Of a stretch of 64,000 nt of DNA, positions 53,069 through 64,000 are shown one piece after another. The notes under the pieces are model-generated. The model made no database searches, had not been told where the DNA came from, and was given only the letters and a program-made list of their open reading frames with translations. The DNA is from Tepidamorphaceae bacterium. Lineage in GTDB: Bacteria; Pseudomonadota; Alphaproteobacteria; Rhizobiales; Tepidamorphaceae. Position 1 is the first letter of the stretch, and each line of letters opens with the position of its first letter. The DNA lies in assembly GCA_028279445.1 (NCBI GenBank), contig JANQNT010000027.1:62001-126000 (forward strand). Reading direction: 5' to 3'. A program made the position numbers and the translations under genes.

Positions 53069-53950
53069 CTAGCTGTTGCCGTCGATCGCCTTCTTCATCA
53101 GCGGGGCGACCGCATCGGCGTCCGTGGCAATCAGCGCGCCGGCCGATTGCAGCCGCTCGATCTTCTCCGCTGCGCTTGGCAGGCCGAAGATCGACAGCGT
53201 GCCGGCATGTCCCATGCGGCGTTCCTTCGGCGCATGGCGTCCCACCACCAGCGCCACCACCGGCTTGCCGTAGTCGGTGGCCGCCAGATAGTCGGCGGCA
53301 TCTTCTTCCTCGGTGCCGCCGACCTCGCCGATAAGGATGACGCCCTTGGTGGCCTTGTCGTTGCGGAACAGCTCCAGACAGGTCCGGAAACCCAGACCGT
53401 GGATCGCATCGCCGCCGATGCCGACCGTGGTGGTCTGGCCAAGACCGTGCGCCGTGGTCTGGGCGAGTATCTCGCTGGTCAGCGAAGCGGACCGCGACAC
53501 GATGCCGACAACGCCGGGCGCTGCGTCGGCGGTCGGCATGACGCCGATCTTGCAGGCGTCCGGGGTCAGGATGCCCTGCGAATTGGGGCCGATGAGGATG
53601 CTGTCGGAGCCCTTGAGTGCTGCCTTGACGCGGGCGACGTCATGCACGGGGACCCGCTCGGTGACGCAGACGATGACGCCGATCTCCGCCTCGATGGCCT
53701 CGATGATCGCAGGTCCCGCCTTGGCCGCCGGGATCATCACCAGGCTGGCATTGGCGTTGGTCTCGCCGACGGCCTCGCGCACTGTGTTGAACACCGGCAG
53801 GCCGATATGCTGGCTGCCGCCCTTGCCGGGCCGCACGCCGGCCACGTAGGTGGAGCCGTAGCGCACCGCCAGATCGGTGTAGAAGGTGCCCGCCCGGCCG
53901 GTCATGCCCTGGACGAGCACGCGGGTCTGCTTGCCGACGAGGATGGCCAT
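53069..53950 (-). CDS. SucD-like acyl-CoA ligase alpha subunit (substrate unclear)
   Basis: This 293-residue protein matches the alpha subunit of succinyl-CoA/malate-CoA ligases: VLVQGMTGRAGTFYTDLAVR, GIGGDAIHG, and the phosphohistidine loop RRMGHAGTLSIFG. It diverges from standard SucD (SGT becomes SAS in VGIVSRSASL, and GGSQHIGLPVF in the CoA region), so it is unlikely to be the TCA-cycle enzyme. It overlaps the beta-subunit gene by one base and both are downstream of a GntR-type operator at 55185. The malate thiokinase pair (mtkAB) of serine-cycle bacteria is the closest familiar case; oxalate or another dicarboxylate is a further possibility given the neighbouring oxalate genes. Confidence 0.87.
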   Translation of the reverse strand: MAILVGKQTRVLVQGMTGRAGTFYTDLAVRYGSTYVAGVRPGKGGSQHIGLPVFNTVREAVGETNANASLVMIPAAKAGPAIIEAIEAEIGVIVCVTERVPVHDVARVKAALKGSDSILIGPNSQGILTPDACKIGVMPTADAAPGVVGIVSRSASLTSEILAQTTAHGLGQTTTVGIGGDAIHGLGFRTCLELFRNDKATKGVILIGEVGGTEEEDAADYLAATDYGKPVVALVVGRHAPKERRMGHAGTLSIFGLPSAAEKIERLQSAGALIATDADAVAPLMKKAIDGNS

Positions 53951-55125
53951 TAGCGACGTCCCCCCTTGGCAACCTGGACAGCGCGGGCGATGGCCGAACT
54001 CATGTCGGAGAAATCCTCGATCGGCAGCCGCCGGTCCTTCAGCATGGTGCGGGCCCAGTCTGCGTTCTGGCCGGCCAGGCGCACCACCACCGGCGGCTTG
54101 CGCTCGGCGCGTGCATAGGCGATGGCGAAGCCTTCGGCCACCGTGTCGCAGGCCGTCATGCCACCGCCGTGCACATTGACCAGAACCACGGTGACAGAGG
54201 GGTCCTGCAGCAGCATGGTGGCACCGCGCGCCATCTGCAGGCTGGTCGTCGTGGTGCGGATATCCATGAAGTTGGCCGGATCGCCGCCGGCATCGAACAG
54301 CATGTCGTTGGTGGCAAGGCCAAGGCCGGCGCCATTGACCACCACGCCGATATTGCCGGCCAGCTTGACGAAGTTGATGTCGTTTTCCCGGGCGATGCGC
54401 TCCTGCTCGGGGACATCCTGCCCATCGTCAAGGGCCTCGAATTCGGGATGACGGAACAGCGCGTTGGTGTCGAGGGATATCTTGGCGTCGACCGCCAGCA
54501 CCGCCCCGTCGACGCGCACGGCGAGCGGATTGATTTCCACCAGAGTGGCGTCGTTGGCAAAGAAGGCGCGTGCCGCGGCCATGGCGAGTTCGGCGGCCGG
54601 CTCGAGCGCGTTGTCGGAGACACCGGTCTCGGCCAGGAACCGGCGCAATGCCGCCATGTCGTCGCTGCCATCGAAGGTCAGCGTGAACTGGCGCACGATG
54701 CCCGGATCGATGCGCGCGGCCTGCTCGAACTCCACGCCGCCCCTGTCGGAGCACAGCAGTACCGGCTCGCCGGTGTGCTGGTCGAAGGCGATGGCCAGAT
54801 AGAAGCTGCGGTGAATGTCGACCGCCTCTTCGATGTAGACGCTGTTGACCAGTTCGCCCGCCGGCCCGGTTTGCGCCGTCACCAGCGCTTCGCCGATCAG
54901 CCGCGCGGCCTCGCTGCGCACCGCAGAGGGCGTGGCGGCCATCTTGATGCCGCCGACGAGGCCGCGTCCGCCAGCGCCGATCTGCGCCTTGACGACATAT
55001 TTCGTGGCAGGAATCTCACGGCACCGCGCTTCGGCCTCCTCCGGCGTGGTCGCCAGACGGCCAACGGGCACCGTGACGCCATATTGCGCCAGCAGTTCCT
55101 TGGACAGGTGTTCGGAGAGTTTCAA
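53950..55125 (-). CDS. SucC-like acyl-CoA ligase beta subunit (substrate unclear)
   Basis: This 391-residue protein is the ATP-grasp beta subunit partner: KLSEHLSKELLAQYGVTVPV at the start, KAQIGAGGRGLVGGIKM for ATP binding, LVEINPLAVR with the metal-binding residues, and VLVNVHGGGMTACDTVAEG at the CoA-facing end. The start codon is TTG at 55125; no ATG is available and conserved sequence begins at once. It is the first gene of the two-gene unit, about 60 bases downstream of a perfect GntR-type operator and divergent from a LysR gene. As with the alpha subunit, malate-CoA or another dicarboxylate-CoA ligase is the likely activity. Confidence 0.87.
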   Translation of the reverse strand: MKLSEHLSKELLAQYGVTVPVGRLATTPEEAEARCREIPATKYVVKAQIGAGGRGLVGGIKMAATPSAVRSEAARLIGEALVTAQTGPAGELVNSVYIEEAVDIHRSFYLAIAFDQHTGEPVLLCSDRGGVEFEQAARIDPGIVRQFTLTFDGSDDMAALRRFLAETGVSDNALEPAAELAMAAARAFFANDATLVEINPLAVRVDGAVLAVDAKISLDTNALFRHPEFEALDDGQDVPEQERIARENDINFVKLAGNIGVVVNGAGLGLATNDMLFDAGGDPANFMDIRTTTTSLQMARGATMLLQDPSVTVVLVNVHGGGMTACDTVAEGFAIAYARAERKPPVVVRLAGQNADWARTMLKDRRLPIEDFSDMSSAIARAVQVAKGGRR

Positions 55126-58587: not shown

Positions 58588-59301
58588 ATGGCGGGTGTGA
58601 CGCTCAAGCCGCTGGCGATGAACTTCATTCTGAAGGACCGGATCTACGACGTCCTTCTGGAAGCCATCCTCAACACCAACATCTATGACGAGGACGCCGA
58701 TCTGCGTCTCGACGAACGCACCATGGCCGATCAGCTCGGTATTTCGCGCACGCCTTTGCGCGAGGCGCTGGCGCGGCTTGAGCGGGACGGGTTCGTCGAG
58801 ATCAAGCCGCGCAAGGGTGTCTTCATCGCACGCAAGTCGCTGGACGAGGTGCTCGAGATGGTGATCGCCTGGGCGGCGCTGGAGAGCATGGCGGCGCGGC
58901 TGGCCACCGAGAATGCCACCGACGACGAGTTCAAGCGCCTGCGCAAGATGGCGATGCGCCACAGCGAAAGCGCCACGCGGGCCGATCTGGAAGAGTATTC
59001 GGAAGCCAATATCGCCTTCCACCAGACCATTCTGGATCTGTCCAAGTGCACGCTGCTGCGGACCATGGCCGATGGACTGTTCATGCATATGCATGCCGTG
59101 CGGCGCCGTGCCATGGGCGAGGACAATCGCGCCGGGCGCTCGGTGATCGACCACATGGAGATCATCGAGGCGCTGGAGAGCCGCGATGCGGACCTGGCCT
59201 CACGGCTGGTGCGCGACCATACGATGCGCCTGCATGACCATATCGGGCGCACATGGACCAAGCTGGCCCCGATTTCGGAAGGTGCCATGGAGGCAGGCTA
59301 G
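58588..59301 (+). CDS. GntR-family regulator with FCD domain
   Basis: This 237-residue regulator has a GntR winged helix (DERTMADQLGISRTPLREAL, then ARLERDGFV, residues 43-70) and an FCD ligand domain with metal-binding His residues (EANIAFHQTILDLS, RSVIDHMEIIEALE, VRDHTMRLHDHI). FCD regulators usually bind a carboxylate through a metal. The ATG at 58588 (MAGVTLKPLAMNF) is chosen over one 13 codons earlier. The oxc gene starts 74 bases downstream on the same strand. Three TGGTATACCA sites in the surrounding region are proposed as its operators. A repressor released by oxalate, formyl-CoA or glyoxylate is a natural guess, not shown. Confidence 0.9.
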   Translation: MAGVTLKPLAMNFILKDRIYDVLLEAILNTNIYDEDADLRLDERTMADQLGISRTPLREALARLERDGFVEIKPRKGVFIARKSLDEVLEMVIAWAALESMAARLATENATDDEFKRLRKMAMRHSESATRADLEEYSEANIAFHQTILDLSKCTLLRTMADGLFMHMHAVRRRAMGEDNRAGRSVIDHMEIIEALESRDADLASRLVRDHTMRLHDHIGRTWTKLAPISEGAMEAG

Positions 59302-59375: not shown

Positions 59376-61145
59376 ATGGCGGCCACACTGGATGCCGAGA
59401 TCGCCGACGAAGGCAGGGCGGACGCAGGTCAACTGACCGACGGGTTTCATCTGCTGATCGATGCGCTGAAGCTCAACGGAATCAACACCATCTACAACGT
59501 GCCGGGCATCCCGATCACCGATCTGGGACGCTATGCGCAGGCACAGGGCATGCGCGTTATCTCGTTTCGCCACGAGCAGCACGCGGGCTATGCGGCATCG
59601 GTCGCCGGCTTTCTCACCAAGATACCGGGCGTGTGCATGACGGTTTCCGCGCCGGGCTTCCTGAACGGCCTGACGGCGGTCGCCAACGCCACCACCAACT
59701 GCTGGCCGATGATCCTGATCTCCGGGTCTTCTGAGCGTGAGATCGTCGATCTCGCTCAGGGCGACTACGAGGAAATGGACCAGCTCGCCATCGCGCGGCC
59801 GTTCTGCAAGGCGGCCTACCGGCTGACCTATGCCCAGGACATCGGCATTGCAGTCGCGCGCGCCATCCGCAGTGCGGTGAGCGGACGGCCGGGCGGTGTT
59901 TATCTCGACATCCCCGGTGCCATGATGGGCCAGACGATGGACGCCGAAGAGGGCAAGAAGAGCCTGGTCAAGGTGATTGATCCGGCGCCGCGCCAGCGTC
60001 CTTCGGCGGACGCCATCGCGCGGGCCATCGAGGTGATGAAGGGCGCCGAGCGCCCGTTGATCGTGATCGGTAAGGGTGCGGCTTACGACCAGTCGGACGA
60101 TCTGGTGCGCGAGCTGGTCGAGAAGACCGGCTATCCGTTCCTGCCGATGTCGATGGCCAAGGGAATCCTGCCCGACACCCATCCGCAATGCGCTGCCGCG
60201 GCACGTTCGCTGGTGCTCAAGGACTCCGACGTCGTCATCATGATGGGCGCGCGGATCAACTGGCTGCTCAGTCACGGCAAGGGCCGGCAATGGGGCGAGC
60301 CGGGCGCCAAGCGGTTCGTGCAGATCGATATCGACGCGGAGGAAATGGACTCAAACGTCGAGATCGCCGCGCCGCTGGTCGGCGATGTCGGCTCGTGCGC
60401 CGCGGCCCTGCTGGAAGCCATGGAAGGTGAGGGCATCGCCCCGCCCAAGGACTGGGTCGACCAGGTCCATTCCAAGGCGGAAACCAACATGGAGAAGATG
60501 TCCGCCAGGCTGCAGAACAACAACGTGCCGATGGACTATCACGCAGCCCTCGGCGTCCTGAAGCAGGCGATCACCGACCGGCCCGACACCATCCTCGTCA
60601 ACGAGGGTGCCAATACGCTCGACATGGCCCGTTCGATCATCAACGTGCACAAGCCACGTCACCGCATCGACGTCGGCACCTGGGGCGTCATGGGTATCGG
60701 CATGGGGGCCGCGATCGCGGCGGCCGTGGAGACCGGCAAGCAGGTGCTGGCGGTCGAGGGCGACAGCGCGTTTGGTTTCTGCGGCATGGAGGTGGAGACC
60801 ATCTGCCGCTACAAGCTCCCGGTGTGCATCGTCATCTTCAACAACAACGGCATCTACAAGGGTGACGGCGAGAACTGGGGCGGCGGCGACGATCCGGCGA
60901 CCACGGTGTTCGTCGACGACGCCCGCTACGATCTGATGATGGAAGCCTTCGGTGGCGAGGGCGCCTGGGTCAAGACGCCTGACGAGTTGCGTCAGGCCGT
61001 CGAGACGGCGCTTGCCAGCGGCAAGCCGACCCTGATCAACGCGGCAATCGATCCGTCGGCCGGCAAGGAAAGCGGTAACATCGGCAACCTCAACCCGCAG
61101 TCGGTTGTGGCGCAGGCGCTGTATCCGCAGGCCAGCAAGATTTGA
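59376..61145 (+). CDS. oxc: Oxalyl-CoA decarboxylase
   Basis: This 589-residue thiamine diphosphate enzyme converts oxalyl-CoA to formyl-CoA and CO2. It matches Oxalobacter Oxc along its length: [38 protein letters not shown] (the ThDP-activating Glu), [14 protein letters not shown], and [19 protein letters not shown] followed by [15 protein letters not shown] for ThDP-Mg binding. The ATG at 59376 follows GGTGGGAGGAAG. The gene lies 74 bases after the GntR gene and 20 bases before frc, forming the oxalate module. An N-terminal extension of about 15 residues precedes the conserved start. Confidence 0.96.
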
Positions 61146-61165
61146 GCGTCGGGGGAATCGGAAAA

Positions 61166-62440
61166 ATGAAAGCTCTGGAAGGCGTTAAGATCCTCGACTT
61201 CACCCATGTGCAATCGGGGCCGACCTGCACGCAGCTTCTGGCCTGGTTCGGCGCCGATGTGATCAAGGTGGAGCGGCCAGGCGTTGGCGACGCGACGCGC
61301 AAGCAGCTCGTCGACGTACCCGGCGCCGACAGCCTCTACTTCACCATGCTCAACCACAACAAGCGTTCCATCGAGCTGAACTCGAAGAACGAGACCGGCA
61401 AGCAGGTGCTGACCCGCCTGATCGAGGAATGCGACGTGCTGGTGGAGAATTTCGCCCCCGGCGCGCTCGACCGGATGGGCTTTTCCTGGGAACGCATCCA
61501 GGAAATCAACCCGCGCATCATCATGGCGTCGGTGAAGGGTTTCGGGCCGGGCAAGTACGAGGACTGCAAGGTCTACGAGAACGTCGCCCAGTGTGCCGGC
61601 GGATCGGCTTCGACGACGGGCTTTCTGGACGGACCGCCCACGGTCACCGGGGCGCAGATCGGCGATAGCGGGACCGGCCTGCATCTGGCGCTCGGCATCG
61701 TCACCGCGCTCTTCCAGCGCGAAAAGACCGGGCGCGGACAGAAAGTCCTGGCACCGATGCAGGACGGCGTCCTCAACCTGTGCCGGGTCAAGCTGCGCGA
61801 CCAGCAGCGCCTGGCCGCCGGTCCTCTGAAGGAATATTCGCAGTTCGGCGAGGGCATCGAATTCGGCGATGCGACGCCGCGCGCGGGCAACGATTCAGGC
61901 GGCGGCCAGCCGGGTCGCATCCTCAAGTGCAAGGGCTGGGAAGACGATCCCAACGCCTACACCTACTTCATCACCCAGGCTGCGGTCTGGGAGAAGATCT
62001 GCGACGTCATCGGCGAGCCGGAGTGGAAGACCAAGGAAGGCTACGCCACGCCGCCGGAGCGTCTTGACAAGCTGAACGAGATATTCGGGCGTATCGAGCA
62101 GTGGACGATGACCAAGACCAAGTTCGAGGTGATGGACATCTGCAATCCCCTCGACATTCCGGTCGGTCCGATCCTGTCCATGAAAGAGATCATGGAGGAT
62201 GAGGGCCTGCGCAAGACAGGCACCATCGTCGAGGTCGATCACCCCGAACGTGGTCGCTATGCCACCGTCGGCTGCCCGATCAAGCTCAGCGACAGCGAGG
62301 TCGAAGTGGTCCGCTCGCCGCTACTGGGCGAACACACGATGGAAGTCCTCTCCGAGGTGCTCGGCTACTCCGGCGAGGCTTTGCAAGAGGTCGTGGATTC
62401 CGGCGCGGTGGGCGAGCCAAAGGCGATTGCCGCAGAGTGA
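61166..62440 (+). CDS. frc: Formyl-CoA:oxalate CoA-transferase
   Basis: This 424-residue class III CoA-transferase moves CoA from formyl-CoA to oxalate. The catalytic Asp167 is in [14 protein letters not shown] (Asp169 in Oxalobacter Frc), and the glycine loop GGGQPGR, matching the GGGGQP of Frc, is present. The start [20 protein letters not shown] is typical. The ATG at 61166 follows GGGGGAATCGG and is chosen over a TTG eight codons earlier. With oxc it makes a closed cycle in which oxalate yields CO2 and formate. Confidence 0.95.
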
Positions 62441-62523
62441 CCGGACGGACCGGCGAACAGTAACGACAACGATAAGGGCAGGCCGGCGCGAAGACCGGCA
62501 AAAGGCCCAAGGGAGGACGTTTG

Positions 62524-63441
62524 ATGCGATTGATCGTGATGGGGCAGCAGGCCTTCGGCAAGGATGTGCTTGCGAAGCTCCTCGACACGGGAACCGACGA
62601 GGTCGTGGCCGTCTATTGCGAGCCCGACCGCGACGGCAAGCCTGTCGATCCGATCAAGGAATTCGCGCTCGAGAAGGGGTTGCCGGTCGAGCAGCCTGCG
62701 AATTTCGATGAGCAGGCGACGCTCGACACGCTGGCCGGCTTTGAGGCCGATCTGATGGTCATGGCCTTCGTCAACGTCTTCGTGCCCGAAGCCGCCCGGG
62801 ATACGCCGATCCACGGATCGATCTGCTTCCATCCCTCGCTGCTGCCGCTGCATCGCGGCCCCAGCGCGGTCAACTGGCCGATCATCATGGGCTCCACGAA
62901 GTCGGGCTACTCCTGGTTCTATCCCAGCGACGGCCTCGACGAGGGCGACAGCCTGCTGCAGTGGGAGTGCGACATCGGTCCCGACGACACGGTCATCGAT
63001 CTTTATTTCAAGAAGATCTATCCGGCCGCCGTGGACAGCGTGCTGGAGGTCTGCGACCTGTTCCGCGCCGGCAACCCGCCGCATATCGTGCCCGATGAGG
63101 CACAGGCGACCTACGAACGCCGTTGTACCAAGCGGCACTCTGGGATTGACTGGAACAAGCCGGTTCAGCAGGTCTACGATCTGATCCGCGGCACCAATCC
63201 GGCGCCGGGCGCCTGGACCACCCACGGCGGTACCGAGCTTGGCATCTTCGACAGCGTGCGCGTGCCGGGCGATGGGCTTTCGGGCAAGATCCGCTCGGTC
63301 GGCGAAGAGGGCTTCGAGGTGCAGTGCATTGGCGGCCGGGTGCTGGTCAAGCGGGTGCGTCCCGAAGGCGGCGACAAGATGCCGGCAGCGGCATGGGCGG
63401 ATTCGGTCGGGCTCAAGCCCGGCGATACGCTCGGCGAATAG
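62524..63441 (+). CDS. Formyltransferase resembling the N-terminal domain of 10-formyl-THF dehydrogenase
   Basis: This 305-residue protein belongs to the formyltransferase fold shared with Fmt and PurN. It is closest to the hydrolase domain of ALDH1L1-type 10-formyltetrahydrofolate dehydrogenase: GSICFHPSLLPLHRGPSAVN, then SDGLDEGDSLLQWECDIGPD. His103 and Asp139 match the catalytic His106 and Asp142 of that domain. The acyl-carrier and aldehyde dehydrogenase domains are absent. The 3' part (GAWTTHGGTELGIFDSVRVP) forms the C-terminal barrel. The ATG at 62524 follows GGGAGG. As the gene next to frc, it may transfer the formyl group between formyl-CoA or formate and folate. That activity is inferred. 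Confidence 0.85.
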   Translation: MRLIVMGQQAFGKDVLAKLLDTGTDEVVAVYCEPDRDGKPVDPIKEFALEKGLPVEQPANFDEQATLDTLAGFEADLMVMAFVNVFVPEAARDTPIHGSICFHPSLLPLHRGPSAVNWPIIMGSTKSGYSWFYPSDGLDEGDSLLQWECDIGPDDTVIDLYFKKIYPAAVDSVLEVCDLFRAGNPPHIVPDEAQATYERRCTKRHSGIDWNKPVQQVYDLIRGTNPAPGAWTTHGGTELGIFDSVRVPGDGLSGKIRSVGEEGFEVQCIGGRVLVKRVRPEGGDKMPAAAWADSVGLKPGDTLGE

Positions 63442-63463: not shown

Positions 63464-64000
63464 GTGATCCACAACATACTCGTACCGGTTCGCGGTGACG
63501 GCAAAGGCGACAATGTGCTCGCCCATGCAGCCGCCCTGGCGCGCCGCTTCGATGCTCATATCGAGGTCACTCATTGCCGGGTGCGGGCGGAAGACCTGAT
63601 GCCGTTCGCGGTGCCGGTGCCCGGTTTCCTCAAGGCGCAACTCGCCGACTCGGCGAAAAGGCTGGCCGAATTCGAGGAAGAGGGCCTGGTGCAGGAGCTG
63701 CGCGAGCTGGCCAAGAGCCTCGATCTGGTCTTCTCCGACGACCCCAACGCCGCCGGCGTGACGGTCTCCTGGACCGAGGAGCAGGGCAAGCAGCCCGACG
63801 TCATCAAGCACCACGGCCGCCTTGCCGATGTCATCGCCGTGCCGCAGCCCGACCGGGAGCAGAACGTCGGCTTCAATACGCTGAAGTCCGCTTTGTTCCT
63901 GACCGGACGCCCGGTGATGATGTGCCCGCCGACCGAGACGGTGCCGCAGACGCTGGGCAAGCATGTGAGCGTTGCCTGGAACGGTTCGCTGGAAGCCGCC
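63464..64000 (+). CDS. Universal stress protein family protein (3' end outside window)
   Basis: The first 179 codons of a UspA-family protein are visible, starting with GTG at 63464 (GGGAG upstream): ILVPVRGDGKGDNVLAHAAA and a middle VIKHHGRLADVIAVPQ. A second Usp segment begins near the window end (HVSVAWNGSLEAA), so it is probably a tandem-domain protein. Usp proteins bind ATP or are stress markers. It is 22 bases after the formyltransferase gene and co-directional, and so is likely part of the operon. The exact function is unknown. Confidence 0.85.
   Translation, partial: MIHNILVPVRGDGKGDNVLAHAAALARRFDAHIEVTHCRVRAEDLMPFAVPVPGFLKAQLADSAKRLAEFEEEGLVQELRELAKSLDLVFSDDPNAAGVTVSWTEEQGKQPDVIKHHGRLADVIAVPQPDREQNVGFNTLKSALFLTGRPVMMCPPTETVPQTLGKHVSVAWNGSLEAA

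Follow-up and report, generated by a model that had tools for sequence, protein, structure and literature searches.

A stand-alone formyltransferase gene was identified immediately downstream of oxc and frc, which encode oxalyl-coenzyme A (CoA) decarboxylase (Oxc) and formyl-CoA:oxalate CoA-transferase (Frc), in a 64,000-nucleotide stretch of the genome of a Tepidamorphaceae bacterium (assembly GCA_028279445.1, contig JANQNT010000027.1, positions 62,001 to 126,000; hereafter the window, in whose own numbering positions are given). The gene, referred to here as FT, extends from 62524 to 63441 on the + strand and encodes a 305-aa protein that is closest by sequence to the N-terminal domain of 10-formyltetrahydrofolate dehydrogenase (FDH, ALDH1L1). 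Because FT has the same catalytic triad as FDH and its neighbours make or consume formyl-CoA, we tentatively regard it, at close to an even chance, as a thiol-directed folate formyltransferase catalysing the exchange 10-formyl-THF + CoA <-> THF + formyl-CoA (THF, tetrahydrofolate).

FT begins with an ATG codon preceded by the ribosome-binding site GGGAGG (62511..62516, + strand; direct reading of the sequence). Its product comprises only the Formyl_trans_N and Formyl_trans_C domains; neither a carrier domain nor an aldehyde dehydrogenase (ALDH) domain was detected in the 305 aa by Pfam, and no separate carrier or ALDH partner was found among the neighbouring genes examined. The closest PDB sequences are FDH hydrolase domains (4qpd, E=1.6e-52), and the best match among methionyl-tRNA formyltransferases (Fmt) is 4iqf (E=9.3e-34). 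The similarity to the FDH N-terminal domain covers the full-length fold (35% identity) and includes the triad, since His103, Ser105, and Asp139 of FT align with His106, Ser108, and Asp142 named as the FDH triad (PMC6802093); these three residues are invariant in 124 of 124 aligned family members. FT and FDH also share Trp118, Tyr161, Tyr197, and Glu198 (FT numbering) and both lack the catalytic Asn of amine formyltransferases, and Gln8, Trp118, Tyr161, and Glu198 are common to FT and FDH but differ from Fmt. An AlphaFold2 model of FT, built with 19 homologues, had a mean pLDDT of 93.9, and its first Foldseek match was the FDH hydrolase domain (E=9.9e-36, TM 0.86). The original prediction of an FDH-type formyltransferase without carrier or ALDH domain is thus borne out by the Pfam domains, PDB matches, Foldseek search, and triad alignment. 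A complete 10-formyl-THF dehydrogenase was rejected as an identity for FT, as the carrier and C-terminal ALDH domains are absent. Unlike FDH, FT is stand-alone and linked to formyl-CoA enzymes, and because it has no carrier domain, the acceptor thiol, if there is one, must be that of free CoA or of another molecule.

The position of the catalytic Asn is occupied by Cys101 in FT, by Cys or Gln across the FT family (a single stand-alone row has Asn), and by Ile in FDH. The Asn is kept in all 6 sampled Fmt sequences but is gone in FT, FDH, and most sequences resembling HypX/HoxX, the protein for CO synthesis for NiFe hydrogenase. The Cys101 codon lies at 62824-62826; 81 frc-linked FT proteins have Cys and 16 have Gln at this position, and those encoded away from frc have Gln in 19 cases and Cys in 3. 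This difference may possibly mark a functional split, although its distribution follows clades. In the phylogenetic tree, FT separates from Fmt with 97% SH-aLRT support. FDH lies beside, not within, the FT clade, and FT, FDH, and three HypX-like rows group together (SH-aLRT 98), but the HypX part of the tree contains very long branches, which leave both FDH and HypX as candidate sisters of FT.

It is very improbable that FT is a further methionyl-tRNA formyltransferase or that it formylates some other amine, such as that of a sugar or of glycinamide ribonucleotide. The fold is the same, with the FT model level in VIA-align comparisons with Fmt (Z 35.8) and FDH (Z 34.7), and an FT homologue on the plasmid record CP031587.1 has been annotated as fmt_2. 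Among the named NCBIfam models, Fmt is the best for FT, yet the score is only 119.3 bits against a cut-off of 201.5 (TIGR00460). In addition, Cys101 replaces the Asn that the sampled Fmt sequences retain, FT stands apart from Fmt in the tree, and a separate fmt gene immediately follows def elsewhere in the genome. On the grounds of the TIGR00460 score, Cys101, and the def-fmt pair, the methionyl-tRNA formyltransferase assignment was rejected.

The two genes upstream of FT are, by their sequences, genuine oxc and genuine frc. The product of oxc (59376..61145, + strand) scored 958.7 bits with TIGR03254 (cut-off, 739.4), matched 7ayg with an E-value of 1.4e-272, and retains the equivalents of Glu135, Tyr497, and Ser568 of MeOXC. 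That of frc (61163..62440, + strand) scored 697.8 bits with TIGR03253 (cut-off, 504.2), and its nearest solved structure is Escherichia coli YfdW (1pqy, E=2.6e-163). FT follows frc on the same strand after a gap of 83 bp, and the placement directly after oxc and frc described in the original prediction is confirmed, with both upstream products above the curated TIGR cut-offs.

The conservation of this arrangement was surveyed in three sets of sequences: 60 relatives together with the own genome; a class sample of 385 genomes evenly drawn from the class; and 80 named loci, which are the best-matching loci from a scan of GTDB genomes and are biased to close relatives. In the first set, Oxc exceeded the curated cut-off in 16 genomes, 13 of which carry an FT orthologue within ~4 kb on the same strand (co-occurrence, p=4e-6); in two of the three Oxc genomes without a nearby FT (L055 and L056), formate dehydrogenase genes follow frc instead. 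FT, Frc, and Oxc were found in 34, 35, and 20 genomes of the class sample, respectively, and FT and Frc occur together in 28 (28/34 FT genomes; p=2.7e-30), with 17 of the 34 FT genes beginning 9-189 bp after frc. In the named loci, frc lies immediately upstream of FT in 73 of the 80; in six of the seven others, the sequence is interrupted by a contig edge or frc is truncated, leaving only L135 as an exception. The usual gene order in these loci is GntR-(Oxc or HACL-like ThDP enzyme)-Frc-FT-(FtfL)-Usp, where HACL denotes 2-hydroxyacyl-CoA lyase, ThDP thiamine diphosphate, FtfL formate-THF ligase, and Usp universal stress protein. The operon is spread across many alphaproteobacterial families and some gammaproteobacterial and other metagenome-assembled genomes, and in four small betaproteobacterium-like genomes (~2 Mb; L171-L174), FT follows a frc copy beside oxc. 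The survey anticipated in the original prediction therefore revealed strong conservation beside frc, with either Oxc or a second ThDP enzyme as the partner.

That second ThDP enzyme is distinct from Oxc. The ThDP partner is Oxc in 49 named loci and a HACL-like enzyme in 18, and the latter also takes the place of Oxc in the relatives G010, G022, G045, and G060. The HACL-like proteins are 76-88% identical to one another (e.g. L046:10714-12462, L050, L052, L053, L070, L109, and L121) but only ~25% identical to Oxc, whereas the accompanying Frc proteins are 66-89% identical to the Frc of the window. 2-Hydroxyacyl-CoA lyases are enzymes that release formyl-CoA, and they are the nearest solved relatives of the HACL-like partner (e.g. 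of the L046 protein; 7pt3, E=4.6e-76). Of the residues described in AcHACL, namely the conserved Gln128 and the acid/base Glu493 (PMC8760513), the equivalent of the former is present (LQD) in the HACL-like partner, while Glu493 aligns with Ile; the Oxc Tyr is missing. Well-supported branches of the FT tree require the HACL-like label to have changed seven times or more. The ThDP enzyme has been swapped several times, while Frc-FT, and mostly FtfL, have remained constant.

The distributions of FtfL and of PurU, the 10-formyl-THF deformylase, also bear on the function of FT. FtfL is encoded next after FT in 48 of the 67 named loci with enough sequence and is present in 20/20 relatives with FT versus 25/41 others (p=5.8e-4); in the genome analysed here, it is encoded on another contig (C19:496674-498338), not adjacent to FT. 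PurU is absent from all 20 relatives with FT but present in 21 of 41 others (p=2.8e-5), and the corresponding numbers in the class sample are 0/33 and 14/46 (p=2.1e-4), giving 0/53 FT genomes versus 35/87 others overall; these FtfL and PurU counts are uncorrected for the species tree, some genomes are incomplete, and the comparison group for PurU is small, with most rows coming from different families. The exclusion is also seen when counted by family (0/34 versus 31/74, p=6.6e-7), persists among FtfL-bearing relatives only (p=4.6e-4), and is alike for frc-linked and stand-alone FT genes. The absence of PurU from all 53 FT genomes suggests, as the simplest reading, that FT makes PurU unnecessary, that is, that FT removes the formyl group from 10-formyl-THF.

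FT may then be a 10-formyl-THF hydrolase replacing PurU (10-formyl-THF + H2O -> THF + formate), which would serve as an overflow valve for oxalate-derived formate loaded by FtfL; we consider this a serious alternative, albeit one with distinctly less than an even chance. Several observations weigh on its side or against formyl exchange with CoA. Plain hydrolysis accounts equally well for the exclusion of PurU, and the isolated N-terminal domain of FDH is itself termed a hydrolase. Hydrolysis would not need frc, and in the class sample, half of all FT genes are located apart from frc, with Frc wholly absent from 6 of the 34 FT genomes. In HypX, moreover, CoA is bound largely by the other domain of the protein. 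A pterin-4a-carbinolamine dehydratase gene near FT in one clade of stand-alone FT genes (L179, L184, L188, and L192; just upstream at L188:8011-8349) is a further link to pterins and folate and is also in keeping with hydrolysis. On the other hand, a hydrolase acting together with FtfL would constitute a futile ATP cycle, so that the tight frc-FT-FtfL order is less well explained, and hydrolysis leaves the tie to frc and the position after two different ThDP/CoA-type lyases unexplained. The catalytic Asn is also missing in FT; to our knowledge, PurU-type hydrolases retain it. PurU may have the same net effect on 10-formyl-THF as FT but possesses an ACT domain that was not found in FT by Pfam. 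FT was rejected as a PurU protein because TIGR00655 (cut-off, 285.95 bits), run against the genome at E<=0.001, did not match it.

Exchange with CoA draws on two precedents. In FDH, 10-formyl-THF donates its formyl group to the thiol of phosphopantetheine, the triad Asp serving as the base, and for HypX, the same transfer to CoA has been proposed on the basis of crystal structures but not assayed directly (PMC6802093). The N-terminal domain of HypX is FDH-like and matches the FT fold (Z 21.7); it differs in its ~20% identity to FT, in having Asp80 instead of the triad Ser, and in being joined to a crotonase-like decarbonylase domain. This fused C-terminal domain is absent from FT according to Pfam, and FT was rejected as a HypX protein. 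For FT itself, we infer the activity, CoA as the acceptor, the reversibility, and the direction. The proton of the CoA thiol would be taken by Asp139, held by His103 and Ser105, and the resulting thiolate would attack the carbon of the N10-formyl group, in line with the chemistry of the FDH hydrolase domain and with that proposed for HypX.

The original prediction envisaged that FT moves formyl groups between formyl-CoA, or formate, and THF, leading from oxalate to one-carbon units. Chemically, the idea that formyl passes between CoA and folate has a sound basis in the FDH and HypX precedents (PMC6802093), but the proposed net direction is not upheld: both precedents run from 10-formyl-THF to a thiol, and PurU is found in none of the 53 FT genomes. 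Formate is unlikely to be a direct substrate of FT, because FtfL, present in all 20 relatives with FT, does that job. One-way transfer from formyl-CoA to 10-formyl-THF, by which oxalate carbon would enter one-carbon metabolism, is accordingly an unlikely variant, and it is contained within the exchange reading rather than additional to it. The same operon evidence supports this variant, as do the formate dehydrogenase genes right after frc in L055 and L056, which have oxc and no FT. Formyl is expected to be donated more readily from a thioester, so that the reaction in this direction is probably downhill. Should oxalyl-CoA be formed by oxidation of glyoxylate, a route proposed in Cupriavidus necator (PMC7486775), 10-formyl-THF would conserve the energy of the thioester. 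With oxalate as the source, by contrast, the CoA lost from formyl-CoA would, by our reasoning, have to be repaid with ATP, with no gain over Frc plus FtfL; furthermore, FtfL beside FT already handles formate assimilation, and the exclusion of PurU points to folate deformylation.

We slightly favour the direction from 10-formyl-THF to formyl-CoA. In the proposed scheme, Oxc or the HACL-like ThDP enzyme would generate formyl-CoA, Frc would move its CoA onto oxalate with release of formate, and FtfL would convert formate and ATP to 10-formyl-THF, such that the CoA and folate pools would be coupled through FT. Acting together, FtfL and FT would use ATP to supply the formyl-CoA with which the Frc/Oxc cycle is started and refilled, and FT would also remove surplus 10-formyl-THF where PurU is missing. 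Priming of Oxc and Frc when formyl-CoA is absent has already been argued for YfdE, the acetyl-CoA:oxalate CoA-transferase of E. coli (PMC3720670). Like FT, YfdE is encoded by an accessory gene beside oxc and frc and could restart the CoA cycle, but it is an unrelated class III CoA-transferase that would prime from acetyl-CoA and not via folate. We offer, with rather less than even confidence, the proposal that FT is a dedicated natural step joining the CoA-thioester and folate formyl pools and that, with FtfL, it provides an ATP-driven formyl-CoA source priming Frc with Oxc or the HACL-like lyase. Where the ThDP partner is of the lyase type, the module could even operate in the direction of building carbon-carbon bonds from formate.

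The remaining genes around FT in the window include a GntR/FCD-family regulator assigned by Pfam (58591..59301, + strand; start codon uncertain), which precedes oxc in most homologous operons. A Usp-like gene starts 22 bp after FT and runs past the window edge (63464..64000, + strand; 285 aa in the contig). A two-domain Usp-like protein is again encoded after FT or FtfL in relatives (e.g. L062, L081, and L106), and Usp directly follows FT in 13 of 67 named loci. An acyl-CoA ligase pair resembling SucD/SucC is located at 53069-55125 on the - strand; its SucC-type gene is the third of the genome and falls under the cut-off for the succinate-CoA ligase beta subunit (TIGR01016; 342 versus 375.6 bits). 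In 19 of 59 named loci, a comparable pair is located upstream of the GntR-oxc/ThDP-frc-FT operon in divergent orientation, and the pair could be a CoA ligase feeding the cycle. Elsewhere, a fourth protein of the genome has a partial match to Formyl_trans_N (34 bits, 194 aa; G000:C29:36050-36352, - strand; L059:2488-3072).

Formate occurs in activated form both as formyl-CoA and as 10-formyl-THF, and no characterised stand-alone enzyme linking the two was found in the open-access papers searched. Likewise, no paper on an oxc/frc-linked formyltransferase or on formyl transfer from formyl-CoA to folate, beyond HypX, was found among those papers, which include few subscription journals. The formyltransferase domain is known, but an FDH-type gene that is stand-alone and belongs to a formyl-CoA operon appears, from those papers, to be uncharacterised, and the conserved operon suggests that an enzyme linking formyl-CoA and 10-formyl-THF exists. 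If this is true, the picture of oxalate and formate metabolism would change, and a natural formyl-CoA source or sink would become available for synthetic C1 pathways, which are built on HACL and Oxc. If FT is only a hydrolase, it would still be a newly recognised counterpart of PurU, and in either case a label of fmt, such as that given in CP031587.1, would be a misannotation.
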